43,247 nucleotides of DNA, from positions 1 to 43,247 of the forward strand of contig JAITIP010000045.1 of NCBI GenBank assembly GCA_031279415.1, read 5' to 3'. Below are positions 4,951-21,746 of this stretch, piece after piece. The notes beneath the pieces were generated by a model that was not told the DNA's origin, did not search any database, and worked only from the letters and a program-made list of their open reading frames with translations. The translations under genes were made by a program, and so were the position numbers. This DNA is from Candidatus Endomicrobium procryptotermitis (lineage in GTDB: Bacteria; Elusimicrobiota; Endomicrobiia; Endomicrobiales; Endomicrobiaceae). The stretch's first letter is position 1. Each line of letters starts with the position of its first letter.

Positions 4951-6687
4951 TCACGAAGGAATATAAGAGGTTATTTTTTCAAGTATAATCTTTGCTCTCT
5001 TTTCTTGGAAATCCAAGCATCTATCTTCACTCCACAAGTCTTCATTAGCGGGTATTAAATGTAATCTTAAAAAAGCTTTTTTGTCTTTTACGTTTTTTTC
5101 GCCTCTTTTATCTGCACCGTTTATCCATTTGGCAAATGGAGTGTCATTTTTGTTGCCGCGATTTGTCGAATAATCAATAAGTTGATAATTTTTTATATTA
5201 TTGATTTTATCCCATTCAATACCTTTATCTGAAAGTATTTTTCTAGGCATAATATGATCGATGTCATTTACCCGTGCAGGCGGTTTACAATCATACATTA
5301 AAAAAAATAAAAAATCTTTGTCTAGTTTATGTAAATTTTCAGAAGAATAAAATATCGTAAAAGCATTTAATTTTTCATTATATACTTTGAACAATTCACC
5401 AGTAGGAAAATCTTTGTTTCTAAAATTTTTTATAATTTCTAAAATCTTTTTGACACCTGTTTTATATGGAACCCAGCCTGCTCCTCTGCTTCTAAATACG
5501 CCGTTGAGCAAAGAGTGATAAAGCCATTTTTTCATTAATGGAAAATCAGTATTGCCAGAATCATAATTATCAAAATAGCGCTCTATTTTTAAAACTTCAA
5601 TATCTTTATGAAATAAATGATAAACGATAAAAAATAAAGGAATAAATGAGGAATTGTTATTTTGATAAAATTTTAATAATTCCGCTTTATCAAGGAAATT
5701 TTTAAGAGCTTTAATTGCGGCTTTTATTTTATCTGCATTTTTAATTGCAAAATTAGCATCGGAATATTCAAGCAAGGACATTTCTTTGGAATAGTTATCC
5801 TGTAATAAAAAAACTAGCTTGATAAGGTTTTCCTGAGAAAGCCCAATATCTTGGTAAGAATCCAGCATTTGGTTTAAGAAATTCTCCATTCGCCAATCAA
5901 AACCTTTTAAAATAGAAGCGACAAGTTCAAAAGAAGATAATTTTGTCCCACCATCGTTCAATCGCCTAAACATCTCTACGATTTTTTGTCGATTTTCTAT
6001 CGCGCTTTCTTCTTCTGTCCTATCAGGCAAACACTTATTAATTACAACCTTTGAAATACCTAAAGTATTTGAATTCAAAACATTCTCATAAAATGCTAAT
6101 ACATTTTCTTCTATACAATCTTTATGAGACTCATCTGAGATAGAGTTTTCTTCAATTATCATTTTTACAATTTGCTTATACTTTCCCGTATTTTTAAGTT
6201 TTTGCAGCAAATCTTTTATAGAATACCATAAATGTTTTTGTATTGCCCTATCTTCTTTTGTCTGTTTAGGCAAACTACTCATATTATTTTCAAATTTGAA
6301 TTCAAATTCTGAATTATAATCGCTAAATAAATCAAAATATAAAATTTTTCCATTAATACTGCCTTTAAGTCCAATATAGAAAGTTTGCAGTCGTTGTTGT
6401 CCGTCAATGATAAAAAGTTGTTGTTGTGTTAAAGTGCCTGCTTGTCTAGACGGTATGAAGCAGCCATCTTTTGTAAACGGTCTATAATTAAATAACGGCT
6501 GTGCCCCCTTTTCTTCTTCTATTGCCATTATTGCACCAAAACTATCACCTTTTAATAGCGTGTCAAAAAGCAGTTCCATTTTTTCTTCCGTCCAAACTAA
6601 TGGACGCTGAATTACGGGCAAAACAAATTTTTCATCTTCAATCTCTGTAGCTGCGTCTGCAATTCTATAAGTTGTCCAAATTGCCAT
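4951..6687 (-). CDS. DUF262-DUF1524 (GmrSD/SspE-like) restriction nuclease
   Basis: A 578-residue protein with the two domains of the GmrSD-like defence nucleases. The N-terminal DUF262 part has the ParB-like nucleotidase signature IDGQQR at residues 94-99 and the supporting IQRPLVW motif at 26-32. The C-terminal DUF1524 HNH nuclease has DIDHIMPR starting at residue 475, with a later N-x-x-L-I-D-Y-S/N-R-G-N-K block. Family members include the type IV enzyme GmrSD and SspE of the phosphorothioate system, which use nucleotide hydrolysis to license DNA cleavage. No partner modification genes lie nearby, so it looks like a stand-alone nuclease. AGAGGAG before the ATG supports the start. A TATAAT about 60 bases upstream with a poor -35 may be its promoter. 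Apparently intact. Confidence 0.9.
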   Translation of the reverse strand: MAIWTTYRIADAATEIEDEKFVLPVIQRPLVWTEEKMELLFDTLLKGDSFGAIMAIEEEKGAQPLFNYRPFTKDGCFIPSRQAGTLTQQQLFIIDGQQRLQTFYIGLKGSINGKILYFDLFSDYNSEFEFKFENNMSSLPKQTKEDRAIQKHLWYSIKDLLQKLKNTGKYKQIVKMIIEENSISDESHKDCIEENVLAFYENVLNSNTLGISKVVINKCLPDRTEEESAIENRQKIVEMFRRLNDGGTKLSSFELVASILKGFDWRMENFLNQMLDSYQDIGLSQENLIKLVFLLQDNYSKEMSLLEYSDANFAIKNADKIKAAIKALKNFLDKAELLKFYQNNNSSFIPLFFIVYHLFHKDIEVLKIERYFDNYDSGNTDFPLMKKWLYHSLLNGVFRSRGAGWVPYKTGVKKILEIIKNFRNKDFPTGELFKVYNEKLNAFTIFYSSENLHKLDKDFLFFLMYDCKPPARVNDIDHIMPRKILSDKGIEWDKINNIKNYQLIDYSTNRGNKNDTPFAKWINGADKRGEKNVKDKKAFLRLHLIPANEDLWSEDRCLDFQEKRAKIILEKITSYIPS

Positions 6688-15417: not shown

Positions 15418-17613
15418 CTAGACCGTCAAGCTTAAAAAATTAAAGTTTTCCGAAGGTTTTGGTATAACTATGGAAGATTGAAAAGGCCATCTTTCGATTT
15501 CCATATTATTTTTATCTACACTGACCACAAATTCGATATTTTCATATTCTTGAGGCAAATCTAAATCCTCAAGAGGTATTGTCATTTCAATAATTTTATC
15601 AAAACAGGCATTTGCAGAATCTAAAACTTTTTCTTTTTCACCAGTTTTTATAACAAAACGCAAAACTTTCCCTTCCGCGTCAAAGTTAAGAAATACATTA
15701 TGTTTTACCGGCACTAAAAAGATTATATGAAAAGTAAAATCCTCAAGTGGTTTTAAAGAGATATCACCGCTCAAATCAAAACGGGCATAAAAGCTCTGCA
15801 TATTAAAACCGTAATAAAACCGTTTCAGCGATGTAGAAACTTGATGCATCGAACCGCCGGAATGCCCTACTTCATAATATCCTGCACCTTTCCATTCAAA
15901 AAAGTTCGTCACTTTACCGTCAATTTCAGGATTTATTAAAGAAGACGGTTTTGCCTCATTATGTTTTTTTGAAGTATTTTTAATAGATTTATACAATATG
16001 TCAGGCGGCCGCTGTCCCATACACTCATAAACTTTTATTAAATGTTGTCTGTATATAAAATCAAAAACGGCATCACTGCTTGAAGAATGTTCTGTTCCGT
16101 ACCACCAGTTCCAATCTGAACCTTCAGCGACATACAAAGTATCCCAAGCTTCTTTTTCCTGCTTGGATCCTTTAAAGTCCGGATTTTTCTCTAAAAAATC
16201 CGTGAGAAAATCTCTTGTCATCGAAAGATAATCCCAAGAGGCATTGTCTTCATTATGGCCTATCCATATACCGAAATCTCCGTTGATCCATGAACCTGCT
16301 GTAAGTTTATGTAAAGTATTTTTAGGAGGAAATTTATTCATATATTCATTTATTTTTACAGTTTCTATCACGGGATCATTGCTCAATATTTCATAAAGCG
16401 CTTCCAAAAAATCCCAGCCGTCATTTTTATAATATTCCCAGCAGTTTTCTCCGTCCAGTATGACTGAAACCAAAGGTGCGTCATAATCGTTCCCGGCATA
16501 ATCCGCTATGCCATGCACTTTATTTACAAAATCAGCTGCCGCATCGCGCGCATTCCATTTAGAATAAACGAATCCTATAGCGTCCGACAAACCATGATCC
16601 CTAAAAACCATATTTAATTCTCTTGAGTTTACGGAAAGTTTATAAGGCCTGAACAAAAATTTTCTGTTACCGTTAATTTCTTTTGAACTGTTAAAAAGCA
16701 CGGCTTCGTCGGTGGCAATCCATTTTATGCCAGCGTCGGCCGCTATCGCAGCCATTTCATCGGAAACGGAACCTTCTGAAGGCCACATTCCCGAAGGCTT
16801 GCATCTGAAAAGTTCTTCATAATACCGTACCGCATTATTGACATGCCAGACAGCATCTTCTGGATGAGAAAATCTATTTTTTGGAAGTATCATTCCCGGA
16901 GCCGCCTGATGAGCCGTGTCTGTATTACATAAAAGCGGTAAAATCGGATGGTAATACGGAGTAACCGAAATTTCTATCTGTCCTCTGTCCTGCGCCTCTT
17001 TGTGTTTTGCAACTACTTTTCCGCAAATTTCAAGCTGTTTAGCGATAAGCTGCCGTTTTTCTTCTTCTGTAAAATATCTTTCTTTATTGTACAAATAAGC
17101 AATTAGTTCGTCTCTTTTGCGCCAATATGGGTCAATCCACGCAAGATTAAACCATACCTGTAAATCTCGCAAATCTTCGACTTTAAAACAATTTAAAATT
17201 TTTCTTATTTCAGCTTCAGTCGTTTGCCGTCCGCGTTTTTCAAGAAGCTGCAAATATCTGTTGTAAGGAAAAATCATATTCTCCCAGTTTGCCATAAAAA
17301 AATTCATGAGAATAAAAACTTTTTCATCGGCTCTGAGTAAAGATGCATCTTTGAGAGTTAAATCAAGAAAAGTGTCTTTTGCTTTTCCAGAAGAATATTC
17401 TTCCAGTTGTTTCAGTAGGGAAGGTACGAGGTTGAAATTCGCTTTTATTTTTGGAAAATTGTCGAGAATGGCTACCATGTCGTAATAATCTTTTGTTGCA
17501 TGCAGCCTTACCCACGGAAGTTCATAATTGCACGTGGAAGGGTTTTTATACATCGGTTGATGTTGATGCCATAAAAAAGCCAAATATATTTTCTTCATTC
17601 TAAAATTTTGCAT
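15418..17613 (-). CDS. Glycoside hydrolase family 57 (alpha-amylase/4-alpha-glucanotransferase type)
   Basis: A 731-residue GH57 enzyme. The N-terminal HQHQP at residues 16-20 is the first conserved region. The predicted catalytic nucleophile is E280 in GMWPSEGSVSDE and the predicted acid/base is D387 in VILDGENCWEYY; WIATDE at 298-303 is a further signature. GH57 enzymes act on alpha-glucans such as starch or glycogen by a retaining mechanism. There is no signal peptide, so it probably works in the cytoplasm on storage glycogen or imported dextrins. The C-terminal 150 residues look like a beta-rich accessory domain. The start overlaps the upstream gene by 14 bases; an alternative ATG lies at 17598 but has no ribosome-binding site. 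Substrate not determinable. Confidence 0.9.
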   Translation of the reverse strand: MQNFRMKKIYLAFLWHQHQPMYKNPSTCNYELPWVRLHATKDYYDMVAILDNFPKIKANFNLVPSLLKQLEEYSSGKAKDTFLDLTLKDASLLRADEKVFILMNFFMANWENMIFPYNRYLQLLEKRGRQTTEAEIRKILNCFKVEDLRDLQVWFNLAWIDPYWRKRDELIAYLYNKERYFTEEEKRQLIAKQLEICGKVVAKHKEAQDRGQIEISVTPYYHPILPLLCNTDTAHQAAPGMILPKNRFSHPEDAVWHVNNAVRYYEELFRCKPSGMWPSEGSVSDEMAAIAADAGIKWIATDEAVLFNSSKEINGNRKFLFRPYKLSVNSRELNMVFRDHGLSDAIGFVYSKWNARDAAADFVNKVHGIADYAGNDYDAPLVSVILDGENCWEYYKNDGWDFLEALYEILSNDPVIETVKINEYMNKFPPKNTLHKLTAGSWINGDFGIWIGHNEDNASWDYLSMTRDFLTDFLEKNPDFKGSKQEKEAWDTLYVAEGSDWNWWYGTEHSSSSDAVFDFIYRQHLIKVYECMGQRPPDILYKSIKNTSKKHNEAKPSSLINPEIDGKVTNFFEWKGAGYYEVGHSGGSMHQVSTSLKRFYYGFNMQSFYARFDLSGDISLKPLEDFTFHIIFLVPVKHNVFLNFDAEGKVLRFVIKTGEKEKVLDSANACFDKIIEMTIPLEDLDLPQEYENIEFVVSVDKNNMEIERWPFQSSIVIPKPSENFNFLSLTV

Positions 17614-19282: not shown

Positions 19283-19479
19283 AAGAAATTATTTTACTAT
19301 TTTCATTATGATTTATCAACGAAAAACATAAAGTGTGGATTCAACATACTAACGCAACGCTTATCGTTGTTTGCAAAAGGAAACCGTTGCAGCAAGCAGC
19401 ATCACTGCTTCTTTTTTCTTTAAGTACAAGTTGAATGGATTGCAAATAACGAGTAGTCATGGGGAGTAGAATTAGTAAA

Positions 19480-19599
19480 ATGGAACAATAAAAGTGCGAA
19501 AGTAGAATTTTTACTTAGCAATAGATATAGATCAAGAAAATGTCTTGATTATTTCACACCAATAAGGTCTTTAATTATATTGTTGCATTAGCAACTTGA
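19480..19599 (+). mobile_element. Decayed C-terminal remnant of an IS30-type transposase
   Basis: The plus strand reads LSNRYRSRKCLDYFTPIRS and, after a frameshift, VALAT with a stop at 19597-19599. IS30-family transposases end in an L-N-x-R-P-R-K-x-L-x-Y-x-T-P block followed shortly by V-A-L and the stop, which this matches with several substitutions. Upstream codons (19430-19500) hold more stops. Only the last 40 codons or so remain. The stretch from 19283 to about 19430 shows nothing I can support beyond a TGTGGATTCAA word shared with 22055-22065. Confidence 0.45.
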
Positions 19600-19629
19600 A
19601 TTGGCCTATTCTACAATTTGGTGTTAGAG

Positions 19630-19898
19630 TCAAGAAAATATGTCCATATTCGAAAACAGTCGGCTGTTAAAAATTAAAGATTTATGAAGTCTTGAATAAT
19701 TATAATCAAATTGTTTTTGTTTAACAAATTCTTATAAGCTGTCAAAATTGTTAGAAAGTTCTTTTTTGCTTTTGCCATCTACTTAATGCTTCACACTTTT
19801 GCCGATTATTTCTGATATTTCGCTTAAAATCAGTCCTTTAATTTATCAACTTATTCTAAAATCTTTCGCCTTTGTTGTATTTTTTTGGAAGTATTCAT
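19630..19898 (-). pseudogene. Decayed small HTH-type gene, copy 1 of a dispersed pair
   Basis: On the minus strand a strong GAGGGGG site (19903-19911 region) precedes ATG 19898. The frame reads MNTSKKIQQRRKILE, stop, VDKLK, then shifts frame into LILSEISEIIGKSVKH, stop, VDGKSKKELSNNFDSL, stop, EFVKQKQ. With the stops read as lost Gln/Glu codons, this is a small protein with a helix-turn-helix-like ILSEISEIIGKS core. A clearly related leader and gene start occur at 43141-43247 on the plus strand. I do not recognise the family; a phage or element regulator is plausible. Confidence 0.45.
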
Positions 19899-19948
19899 TA
19901 TTATCCCCCTCTTTTAGTGCCATTTCTATTTTGACCTTAACGTTGATA

Positions 19949-19977
19949 TTGAAAGAAATATAAAAATTTTATATACT
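19949..19977 (+). promoter_or_regulatory. Promoter TTGAAA-17-TATACT, probably for tRNA-Leu
   Basis: TTGAAA at 19949-19954 and TATACT at 19972-19977 are 17 bases apart. Transcription would start near 19984, about 57 bases before the tRNA-Leu gene and in front of the hairpin at 20012-20035. Confidence 0.5.
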
Positions 19978-20011
19978 TATTATGTTATTTTAAGTATTTG
20001 AAAAATTACAT

Positions 20012-20035
20012 AAAAGATTGAATTTTCAATCTTTT
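20012..20035. terminator. Hairpin with T-run between promoter and tRNA-Leu
   Basis: AAAAGATTGA pairs perfectly with TCAATCTTTT, followed by another T, giving a terminator-like hairpin 6 bases before the tRNA-Leu gene. It may end a transcript from the left, or be a processing or attenuation element in the tRNA leader. Confidence 0.45.
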
Positions 20036-20040
20036 TAGAT

Positions 20041-20126
20041 GGGCGGATGGCGGAACTGGCAGACGCACAGGACTTAAAATCCTGAGGCTCGCAAGAGCCG
20101 TGAGGGTTCAATTCCCTCTCCGCCCA
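20041..20126 (+). tRNA. tRNA-Leu (anticodon UAA)
   Basis: Acceptor stem GGGCGGA/TCCGCCC, class II long variable arm GGCTCGCAAGAGCC, T-arm GAGGGTTCAATTCCCTC and anticodon TAA in the loop of GGACTTAAAATCC. The discriminator is A; no CCA is encoded. Confidence 0.97.
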
Positions 20127-20155
20127 TTTTTCTATTTTATAAGGAAACATAAAAA

Positions 20156-21025
20156 ATGAACGAACATCGTAATGTCCTTGTTGATTTTGGGACAATTGAA
20201 AAAAATATACAAAAATATAAGTTCAAAGACAGAGGAATCGAAGCTATACCTACGGATAAAATTGTCGGCAGTCTCGGTCGTTACAATGACTTTTCAGAAA
20301 ATCTTCTTCCTCATCGCGGAGATATGGGAATACGTTATGAAAGTATTAAAAAGGGAATGCTCAGCGGCGTTATTTTTCCTCCGATAAAAGTGTATCAGGT
20401 GCTGGACAATTACTTTATTATAGATGGTCATCACAGGGTAACAGCTGCGAAGAACGTTTTTAATGCAAAATACATAGATGCCGAAGTGCTGGAGATAGAT
20501 TTTGACTTTGAAATTTCTCCGAAAAAAACTTATACCTATAACACTGAAAGCGCAAAAGGTTTTTTAATAAAACTTGAAGAACATTTTTTCCAGCTGAAAA
20601 CGTGCCTTTCAAATACTGTTTTAAAATATCCTCTGAAAGTTACAGAACTCGTCAGTTTTGGAAAACTTTACGAAGAGATAGAAAATTATAAAAACAGCTA
20701 CAATAAAGGGCAGTTCCAAAAACTTTCCATAATTTATGCTTCATATCATTGGTATGAATATCGTTTTATTCCAGCTATATCCATAATAGAAGAAGAAGAT
20801 GTGCTTAGCGGCTTTCCCAATAGAACTTATACCGATTTATATGTCTGGATACAGCAGCATAAATACTATTTAAGCCAAAAAGTCGGATATGATGTGGGTT
20901 TTGATTTTACAGCTCATGATTTTTTCAAAAAATATAAAAAAGTTAAAGGTTTATATCTGATTCCTTCAATGATAAGGGATGTTTTGCGCGGAATAAAAGA
21001 ACAGATTAAAGATTTAAAGGACTGA
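20156..21025 (+). CDS. ParB/sulfiredoxin-fold nuclease-domain protein
   Basis: A 289-residue protein. Residues about 30-110 form a ParB-like domain: the LPHRGDMGIRYESIKKGM stretch leads into PPIKVYQVLDNYFIIDGHHR, with the nucleotide-binding GHHR at 91-94. The remainder is alpha-helical with FPNRTYTDLYVWIQQHKYYL near residues 220-240, a pattern also seen in other uncharacterised ParB-like proteins. Stand-alone ParB-fold proteins can be nucleotidases, kinases or DNA-binding regulators; no helix-turn-helix of the chromosome-partition type is evident. It begins 29 bases after tRNA-Leu behind AAGGAAA, so read-through from the tRNA promoter is plausible. A metallophosphoesterase gene starts one base after its stop codon. 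Fold firm, role unknown. Confidence 0.83.
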   Translation: MNEHRNVLVDFGTIEKNIQKYKFKDRGIEAIPTDKIVGSLGRYNDFSENLLPHRGDMGIRYESIKKGMLSGVIFPPIKVYQVLDNYFIIDGHHRVTAAKNVFNAKYIDAEVLEIDFDFEISPKKTYTYNTESAKGFLIKLEEHFFQLKTCLSNTVLKYPLKVTELVSFGKLYEEIENYKNSYNKGQFQKLSIIYASYHWYEYRFIPAISIIEEEDVLSGFPNRTYTDLYVWIQQHKYYLSQKVGYDVGFDFTAHDFFKKYKKVKGLYLIPSMIRDVLRGIKEQIKDLKD

Positions 21026-21026
21026 C

Positions 21027-21746
21027 ATGAAAATTCTTGCCGTATCCGATATCGAAGATAACAGACTTTATCACATAATAAAGCATAATCGTGAGAAACT
21101 TAATTCTATTAATTATATTTTTTCATGCGGAGATTTACCTCGCAAATATCTTGAATATCTTACGGACAGTATAAAAAAGAGCTTGTATTTTGTTTCCGGT
21201 AATCATTATATTTTTCAGTTTTATGGAGATAATTTCAACTCCCAACAAATTATAAAAAAACTTTATTATGGCAAAGGTATGCGTCTTCGTTTAGGTGGAA
21301 TAGACATGCACGGACGTGTAGAATTTCTTGAAAATTATATAGTCGTTGGTTTCGGTGGTTCGATGAAGTATAATCCCGGAAATTTTCAGTTTGAAGAGTT
21401 TGAAATGGAAAGAATAGTTAGACGGGTGAAAGCTGAAATAAGATGGCAAAGAATCAAAGAATTTTTCTTTTTAAAAAAGAGAAAAGAAGTCATCGTAATG
21501 TCTCATGCTCCTGTTGCAGGAATTCATGATAAAGAAGATAGATGTCATCAAGGGTTTAAATGTTTTAGAGATTTTATACATACAGTAAAACCTATATTGT
21601 GGATGCACGGGCACATTCATTATGAGGGACAGAAAAAAGAGCAGAATACTTTTGTCGAGAAAACGCTTGTATCTAATATTTATTCTTCAAAAGTTATTGA
21701 CATTTTTAACAATGAAGTAAAAGTAAGCCAAGTTTATGATTTGTAA
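21027..21746 (+). CDS. Calcineurin-like metallophosphoesterase
   Basis: A 239-residue metallophosphoesterase. Metal-ligand motifs are in the expected order: D8 in AVSDIED (the usual Asp-x-His is Asp-x-Glu here, with E10 at the histidine place), GD at 35-36 in SCGDLP, GNH at 58-60, SHAP at 159-162 and HGHIH at 194-198. The family hydrolyses phosphomono- or diesters using two metal ions; the substrate is unknown. The Asp-x-His to Asp-x-Glu change occurs in some subfamilies and may alter metal preference. It is directly coupled to the ParB-like gene (one base between TGA and ATG), so the two probably act together, perhaps on nucleotides or nucleic-acid ends. Confidence 0.85.
   Translation: MKILAVSDIEDNRLYHIIKHNREKLNSINYIFSCGDLPRKYLEYLTDSIKKSLYFVSGNHYIFQFYGDNFNSQQIIKKLYYGKGMRLRLGGIDMHGRVEFLENYIVVGFGGSMKYNPGNFQFEEFEMERIVRRVKAEIRWQRIKEFFFLKKRKEVIVMSHAPVAGIHDKEDRCHQGFKCFRDFIHTVKPILWMHGHIHYEGQKKEQNTFVEKTLVSNIYSSKVIDIFNNEVKVSQVYDL

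Follow-up and report, generated by a model that had tools for sequence, protein, structure and literature searches.

A conserved gene pair of a ParB-fold protein and a metallophosphoesterase inside a tRNA gene cluster of Endomicrobiales

Why does a gene for a ParB-fold protein stand directly ahead of a phosphoesterase gene, close behind a tRNA gene, and what could the two products do together? The locus that raises this question lies in a 43,247-nucleotide stretch of DNA, the whole of which is called the window here; its own genome, 2.0 Mb in 46 contigs, belongs to the Elusimicrobiota, with Endomicrobium MAGs as nearest named relatives. On the forward strand, tRNA-Leu(UAA) (positions 20040 to 20127; ARAGORN, anticodon TAA) is followed by gene 1, encoding a ParB-fold protein of 289 amino acids (20156 to 21025), and by gene 2, encoding a calcineurin-like metallophosphoesterase (MPE) of 239 amino acids (21027 to 21746). 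Gene calls and ARAGORN agree on this order, with gene 2 one base after the gene 1 stop, just as a preliminary description of this DNA had it. Only 28 bases separate the end of the tRNA gene from the ATG of gene 1, meaning that a promoter for gene 1 must sit in or before the tRNA gene, and a terminator scan from 20127 to 21746 found no terminator-like sites. The transcription unit probably starts with tRNA-Leu(UAA), and the pair would be transcribed from the tRNA promoter. TTGAAA-17-TATACT (10/12; 19949 to 19977, forward strand) is a candidate promoter of this unit, in a region where such sites do not exceed shuffles in number. The spacer upstream of the tRNA holds decayed dispersed repeats, with short pieces of the 753 bases from 19285 to 20037 matching 24 other places in the genome at 71 to 100% identity; downstream of the pair, only two short repeat matches elsewhere in the genome were found. 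These repeats correspond to the element remnants reported earlier. Elsewhere in the window, 13 kb from the pair, a 578-amino-acid GmrSD_N protein (4951 to 6687, reverse strand; PF03235, 3.4e-25) is encoded by the only defense-type gene recognized among the window genes scanned.

Gene 1 is predicted to comprise an N-terminal ParB/Srx/SerK-type fold (residues ~23 to 117) and a helical, DUF4032-like C-terminal part. Its AlphaFold model, based on 13 sequences, is only moderately confident (pLDDT 68.8), and residues ~23 to 117 align with sulfiredoxin, SerK, SbnI, and ParB at Z 7 to 7.8 over 74 to 98 residues, values that are middling by the structure-comparison tool's own note because they fall under 8. 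This middling similarity agrees with the sequence evidence, since a domain profile built from 12 relatives matched ParB (E 0.0022) and SbnI (E 0.012) in the PDB; PHROG ParB-like partition proteins also match residues 62 to 101 (E 3.5e-5). PDB sequence searches with gene 1 alone or with alignment A1 returned nothing useful. Two motifs stand out in the ParB-fold part. The first, IVGSxGRxxDFxxxxLP (codons 36 to 52, 20261 to 20311, forward strand; alignments A1, A3, and A5), has G38, S39, R42, D45, F46, and P52 in 28/28 genomes. The second is DGHHR (codons 90 to 94, 20423 to 20437, forward strand), a ParB-type phosphate-binding motif already recognized as GHHR, in which D90, G91, H92, H93, and R94 are identical in 28/28 genomes; G91 and R94, the fixed positions of GxxR, are also kept in 12/12 of a wider set of relatives. 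In the C-terminal part, residues 170 to 259 match PF13224 (DUF4032) just above threshold (25.6 bits, cut-off 23.8) and over profile positions 79 to 161 only, half of the profile. The corresponding motif, TDLYVWIQQHKYYLSQKxGxDVGFDF (codons 224 to 258, 20825 to 20929, forward strand; PF13224), has H235, S240, D246, and G248 in 28/28 genomes, and the relative in G027, another Elusimicrobiota genome, scores below the DUF4032 cut-off. DUF4032-like motifs were also seen in other settings: one opens proteins of 366 to 375 amino acids of the same class (L053, 5661 to 6776, and like frames in L054 to L059), which look to us like GGDEF proteins with a glycogen-binding-like end, and two copies of an HKWYLSEKxGxDVG-like motif occur in proteins of 110 to 156 amino acids (L060, 2788 to 3162; L061, 4349 to 4681; L062, 4305 to 4775).

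Gene 2 is a clearer case. PF00149 matches it with 38.9 bits (cut-off 21.5, E 1.6e-9), its predicted model reaches a pLDDT of 86.5, and the closest solved folds are 2yvt (Z 18.6), 1uf3 (Z 17.9), MPPED2 (Z 16.6), and Rv0805 (Z 16.2); PDB sequence searches with the MPE or alignment A2 gave nothing useful. D8, D36, N59, H60, H160, H196, and H198 are invariant, so that the metal ligands GD, GNH, H, and GHxH are present in 28/28 genomes. The two-metal site is intact except for one ligand, with Asp-x-Glu replacing the canonical Asp-x-His, as had been noted before. At this position, residue 10, the 28 proteins have Glu in 22, Asp in 2, Pro in 2, Gln in 1, Ser in 1, and His in none. An MPE lacking the usual Asp-x-His ligand could be weak or altered in activity.

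Is the pairing more than chance? When 294 genomes of the phylum were searched at the protein level, 40 had a match, in several cases just to the short DUF4032-like motif. By profile searches of 340 Elusimicrobiota genomes, gene 1 is present in 34 (33 full length and one partial), gene 2 in 32, and both in 31; in 30 of these 31 they stand next to each other. G163 is the exception, with 18 kb inserted between the two genes, which share a strand. The insert contains an open frame of 5,685 amino acids with internal repeats (contig C39; L100, 2663 to 19720), and another giant frame lies behind the pair in L004 (2697 to 9420). The misfits are few: G276 and G208 carry gene 1 without gene 2, in G097 just 41 bases separate the start of the MPE gene from a contig end, and the gene 1 match of G213 is C-terminal only, inside a protein (L103, 575 to 1768) whose domain ahead of the DUF4032-like tail is presumably kinase-like. 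The G213 protein adjoins triosephosphate-isomerase-like and deoxyribose-phosphate-aldolase-like genes.

Within the order, gene 1 occurs in 30/83 genomes, distributed as 0/41 in genus g2, whose genomes measure 0.2 to 1.4 Mb, and 30/42 in the rest; the pair is dispensable in this reduced genus. Distances in the two protein trees correlate with r 0.88 across 28 genomes (the 30 loci minus L015 and L040, both without gene 2), a value reached by 0 of 5,000 permutations. Compared with close relatives, dN/dS is 0.026 to 0.038 for gene 1 (three comparisons) and 0.114 to 0.142 for gene 2 (two comparisons; the third gave no usable value). Both genes are under purifying selection and share one common history. 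The low dN/dS of both genes means that the gene pair is not a product of chance. By co-occurrence and adjacency, the coupling of ParB-fold protein and MPE is real. Of the coupled nucleotide- or nucleic-acid-processing pair proposed in the preliminary description, the coupling therefore stands, and nucleotide-type chemistry is likely.

The tRNA neighbor recurs too. Among the 30 genomes surveyed for this setting (loci L001 and L014 to L042), 23 have tRNA-Leu(UAA) no more than 600 bases upstream and on the same strand, and 13 have it no more than 29 bases upstream. Elsewhere it is found ~1.5 kb upstream of the pair (G031), cut by a contig end just upstream (G115), present as a tRNA-Leu-like stretch uncalled by ARAGORN (G035), 142 bases from the end of another contig (G135), or on another contig (G123 and G068); G276, which has no upstream tRNA-Leu(UAA) within 600 bases, falls outside the order. 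On the far side, a tRNA gene follows the MPE gene on the same strand in 7/30 loci, Lys(CTT)-Leu(TAG) in 2 and Met(CAT) in 5. Empty sites complete the picture. Gene 1 is missing from 16 genomes of the order with a completeness of at least 90%; 14 of the 16 have a called tRNA-Leu(UAA), and in 12 of these 14 tRNA-Lys(CTT) or tRNA-Met(CAT) comes next, 29 to 347 bases on and on the same strand; at the empty sites of G017 and G001, no tRNA was found within 1.5 kb after tRNA-Leu(UAA). Most pair-less genomes thus go directly to a tRNA of the kinds found behind the pair elsewhere, which makes this a tRNA operon and not evidently an attachment site. The pair lies within a cluster of tRNA genes that is closed where the pair is missing, and its linkage to the tRNA is old and vertical. 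In G073, a tandem duplicate of tRNA-Leu(UAA) occupies an empty site without the pair (contig C101; L138, 1628 to 1715, and L147, 1797 to 1883). No other neighbor recurs widely: across 21 loci, with antisense shadows of gene 1 set aside, the next family appears in just 3, in a comparison whose unequal flank lengths make it a limited test.

Beyond Elusimicrobiota, the pair also occurs in Fusobacteriota, Actinomycetota, and Bacillota, which makes four phyla in all, a lower bound because other phyla were sampled through plasmid, phage, and viral records. All six such records with both genes (two Cetobacterium somerae strains, Tsukamurella, Collinsella, Subdoligranulum, and a faecal contig) have them adjacent on one strand. 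The MPE gene comes first in 3 of the six and the ParB-fold gene in the other 3; G027 also has the MPE gene first. The ParB-fold/MPE partnership is old and widespread. Three of these records, those of Collinsella, Subdoligranulum, and the faecal contig, encode a ParB-fold part fused to a PnrA-like domain (PF02608; E 3.9e-16, 2.3e-15, and 3.5e-13 in the three fused proteins), and these PnrA-fused relatives have EGNKR instead of DGHHR; in the first two, the MPE gene overlaps the fused gene by four bases. Since the PnrA-like domain stands behind an N-terminal ParB fold, the fused protein is probably cytosolic. The second domain of the ParB-fold protein has thus been exchanged, being either DUF4032-like or PnrA-like and nucleoside-binding. 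The faecal contig is labelled Bacteriophage sp., a doubtful label given that it carries tRNA-His, tRNA-Arg, and ordinary bacterial-looking genes.

MPE relatives were found in 15 plasmid records, of which those of Cetobacterium (two), Collinsella, Subdoligranulum, Tsukamurella (NZ_LR134459), and Rhodococcus were examined; the Rhodococcus MPE (L117) had no gene 1 relative nearby, and in faecal record L116 the MPE relative lies 234 bases from the record end, so that any neighbor would fall beyond it. IMG/VR scans with alignment A3 or the Subdoligranulum protein returned no gene 1 relative, the Tsukamurella query gave one doubtful match in a 2,052-amino-acid frame, and two distant MPEs were found. 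Two Rubrobacter plasmids carry ParB-fold relatives without this MPE beside them; these are short ParB-fold-only proteins beside arsenic-resistance genes (L051, 5812 to 6291; L119, 5854 to 6129). Together with G276 and G208, such members without an adjacent MPE indicate that gene 1 relatives can act alone.

What, then, might the pair do? The near constancy of the pair and the exchange of the second domain of gene 1 suggest a nucleoside triphosphate (NTP)-binding switch or enzyme that responds to a small molecule and acts together with a hydrolase. Orphan ParB-fold proteins are reported to bind CTP, ATP, or GTP in the parts of PMC12704722 considered here. The reading we prefer, tentatively and at somewhat less than even confidence, is that the gene products make up a two-protein module in the cytosol: gene 1 would be an orphan ParB-fold protein that binds an NTP and whose second domain reads a metabolite, and gene 2 would be its dedicated two-metal phosphoesterase, in contact with it and cleaving a phosphoester or phosphodiester that is made, held, or signalled by the nucleotide cycle of gene 1. 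In the window lineage, expression within the tRNA-Leu operon would give the module a steady, growth-linked level. A more specific version, which we regard as speculative, is that a ParB-type NTP switch gates an enzyme instead of clamping DNA, with CTP or ATP and the ligand of the second domain turning the phosphoesterase on or off; the ligand of the PnrA-fused form may then be a nucleoside, and the pair may be a nucleotide-sensing control unit in at least four phyla. The pair looks like household metabolism, not virus defense.

In a rival reading, gene 1 would be a small-molecule kinase, phosphorylating a sugar, polyol, nucleoside, or amino acid much as the archaeal serine kinase SerK, which has this fold, phosphorylates its substrate, and the MPE would remove the phosphate or recycle a by-product. 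SerK and SbnI rank among the best matches of gene 1 in fold as well as in sequence, and the DGHHR-type motif is consistent with such activity. However, the NCBIfam SerK model NF053625 scores only 15.6 bits on gene 1 against a cut-off of 380, and neither candidate match to Glu30, the catalytic residue of SerK, has a conserved acidic residue, the alignment there being ambiguous. In Cetobacterium, genes for a maltose-type ABC transporter, a TrmB-family sugar-type regulator, and a glucan phosphorylase precede the pair; in Tsukamurella, a sugar ABC transporter precedes it and an alpha-amylase gene faces it; and a GH57 glycosidase gene (15418 to 17613) lies 2.5 kb from the window pair. But the GH57 gene is absent near the pair from all other loci compared, no sugar operon was found at Collinsella, Subdoligranulum, the faecal contig, or G027, and sugar context is confined to 2 of the 7 lineages with both genes (Endomicrobiales, G027, Cetobacterium, Tsukamurella, Collinsella, Subdoligranulum, and the faecal contig). 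A sugar-metabolism role drawn from the GH57 gene was rejected on these grounds, and a kinase/phosphatase couple in general seems possible but doubtful.

Two further explanations are weaker than the kinase/phosphatase one. The conserved position inside a tRNA gene cluster could mean that the pair is kept with tRNAs to process, repair, or monitor them, and fold relatives of the MPE include the RNA-acting Dbr1 and the nuclease Mre11; yet the Cetobacterium, Tsukamurella, and G027 loci contain no tRNA genes, pair-less genomes retain the same tRNA cluster, and an RNA-binding domain was not found in the pair, leaving an RNA-linked function improbable. Anti-phage defense, the possible accessory role that the preliminary description had read from the tRNA neighbor, is more improbable still. 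Among PADLOC profiles, the candidate PDC-S10 recognizes the MPE (1e-8 for the window protein, 5e-18 for its Collinsella counterpart), a gene pair that we take to be AbiE-like lies 2 to 6 kb away in two loci (L007 and L009), and decayed repeats precede tRNA-Leu. Against this, the pair is inherited vertically at one site across an order, with tRNA linkage in 23/30 loci and a tRNA operon at 12/14 empty sites, dN/dS values are 0.03 to 0.14, and the flanks are ordinary: ten flanking window genes compared with PADLOC included no defense gene beyond ABC-transporter lookalikes. Gene 1 has no PADLOC match, no match in 50,697 phage records, and no relative in the IMG/VR scan with A3, and no known PADLOC system with both genes was found, the MPE matching the PDC-S10 candidate profile only. 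The defense reading was thus set aside, with PDC-S10 staying as a hint. That gene 1 is a chromosome or plasmid partition factor, ParB proper, is scarcely credible despite its fold, as Pfam found no HTH or dimerization domain and no PF02195 match in it, and no ParA among ten window genes scanned.

How does the pair, read as an NTP-binding ParB-fold protein with its own phosphoesterase, compare with known systems? Sulfiredoxin shares the fold of gene 1 (Z 7.8 to 7.4), whereas sequence identity is 13 to 19%, and gene 1 has an extra C-terminal domain and an MPE partner. The uncharacterized MPEs aq_1956 (2yvt) and TT1561 (1uf3) and the phosphodiesterases Rv0805 and MPPED2 share the whole-chain fold of gene 2 (Z 16 to 19), but identity is 16 to 18%, and the window protein has Asp-x-Glu for Asp-x-His. 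DUF4032 (PF13224) shares only the C-terminal motif, which in the G213 protein follows the kinase-like domain instead. Neither DUF4032 nor PDC-S10 was found in the open-licence literature searched, where, judged by titles and abstract starts, the ParB-fold/MPE pair is not described either. The free serine kinases SerK and SbnI, in the parts of PMC5120207 considered, resemble gene 1 in fold and in a DG[H/V]HR-type motif; gene 1 differs in its score far under the SerK cut-off, its other second domain, and its MPE partner, and no serine genes were found among the window genes scanned.

The closest comparison is with orphan ParB-CTPase-fold proteins, which, as far as the parts of PMC12704722 considered here go, share with gene 1 a fold outside parAB, an added second domain, and the GxxR motif. 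In its domain figure, that 2025 survey uses PF02195 to define the fold, whereas gene 1 has no match to this model at E ≤ 1 and has a constant MPE partner; DUF4032-like and PnrA-like second domains are unnamed in those parts, and the main text has no word beginning with "phosphoesterase." On this comparison, the pair is a variant of the orphan ParB-fold proteins that escapes Pfam ParBc, the model underlying the survey. Orphan ParB-fold proteins have been an open question since the discovery of CTP switching, and many have no assigned partner. The gene 1 family, beyond the reach of Pfam ParBc, combines an almost invariable partner enzyme with sensor-like domains that can be exchanged, and so allows a small, direct biochemical test of whether ParB folds regulate enzymes, while the tRNA-cluster setting with its natural empty sites provides clean genome pairs for comparison.
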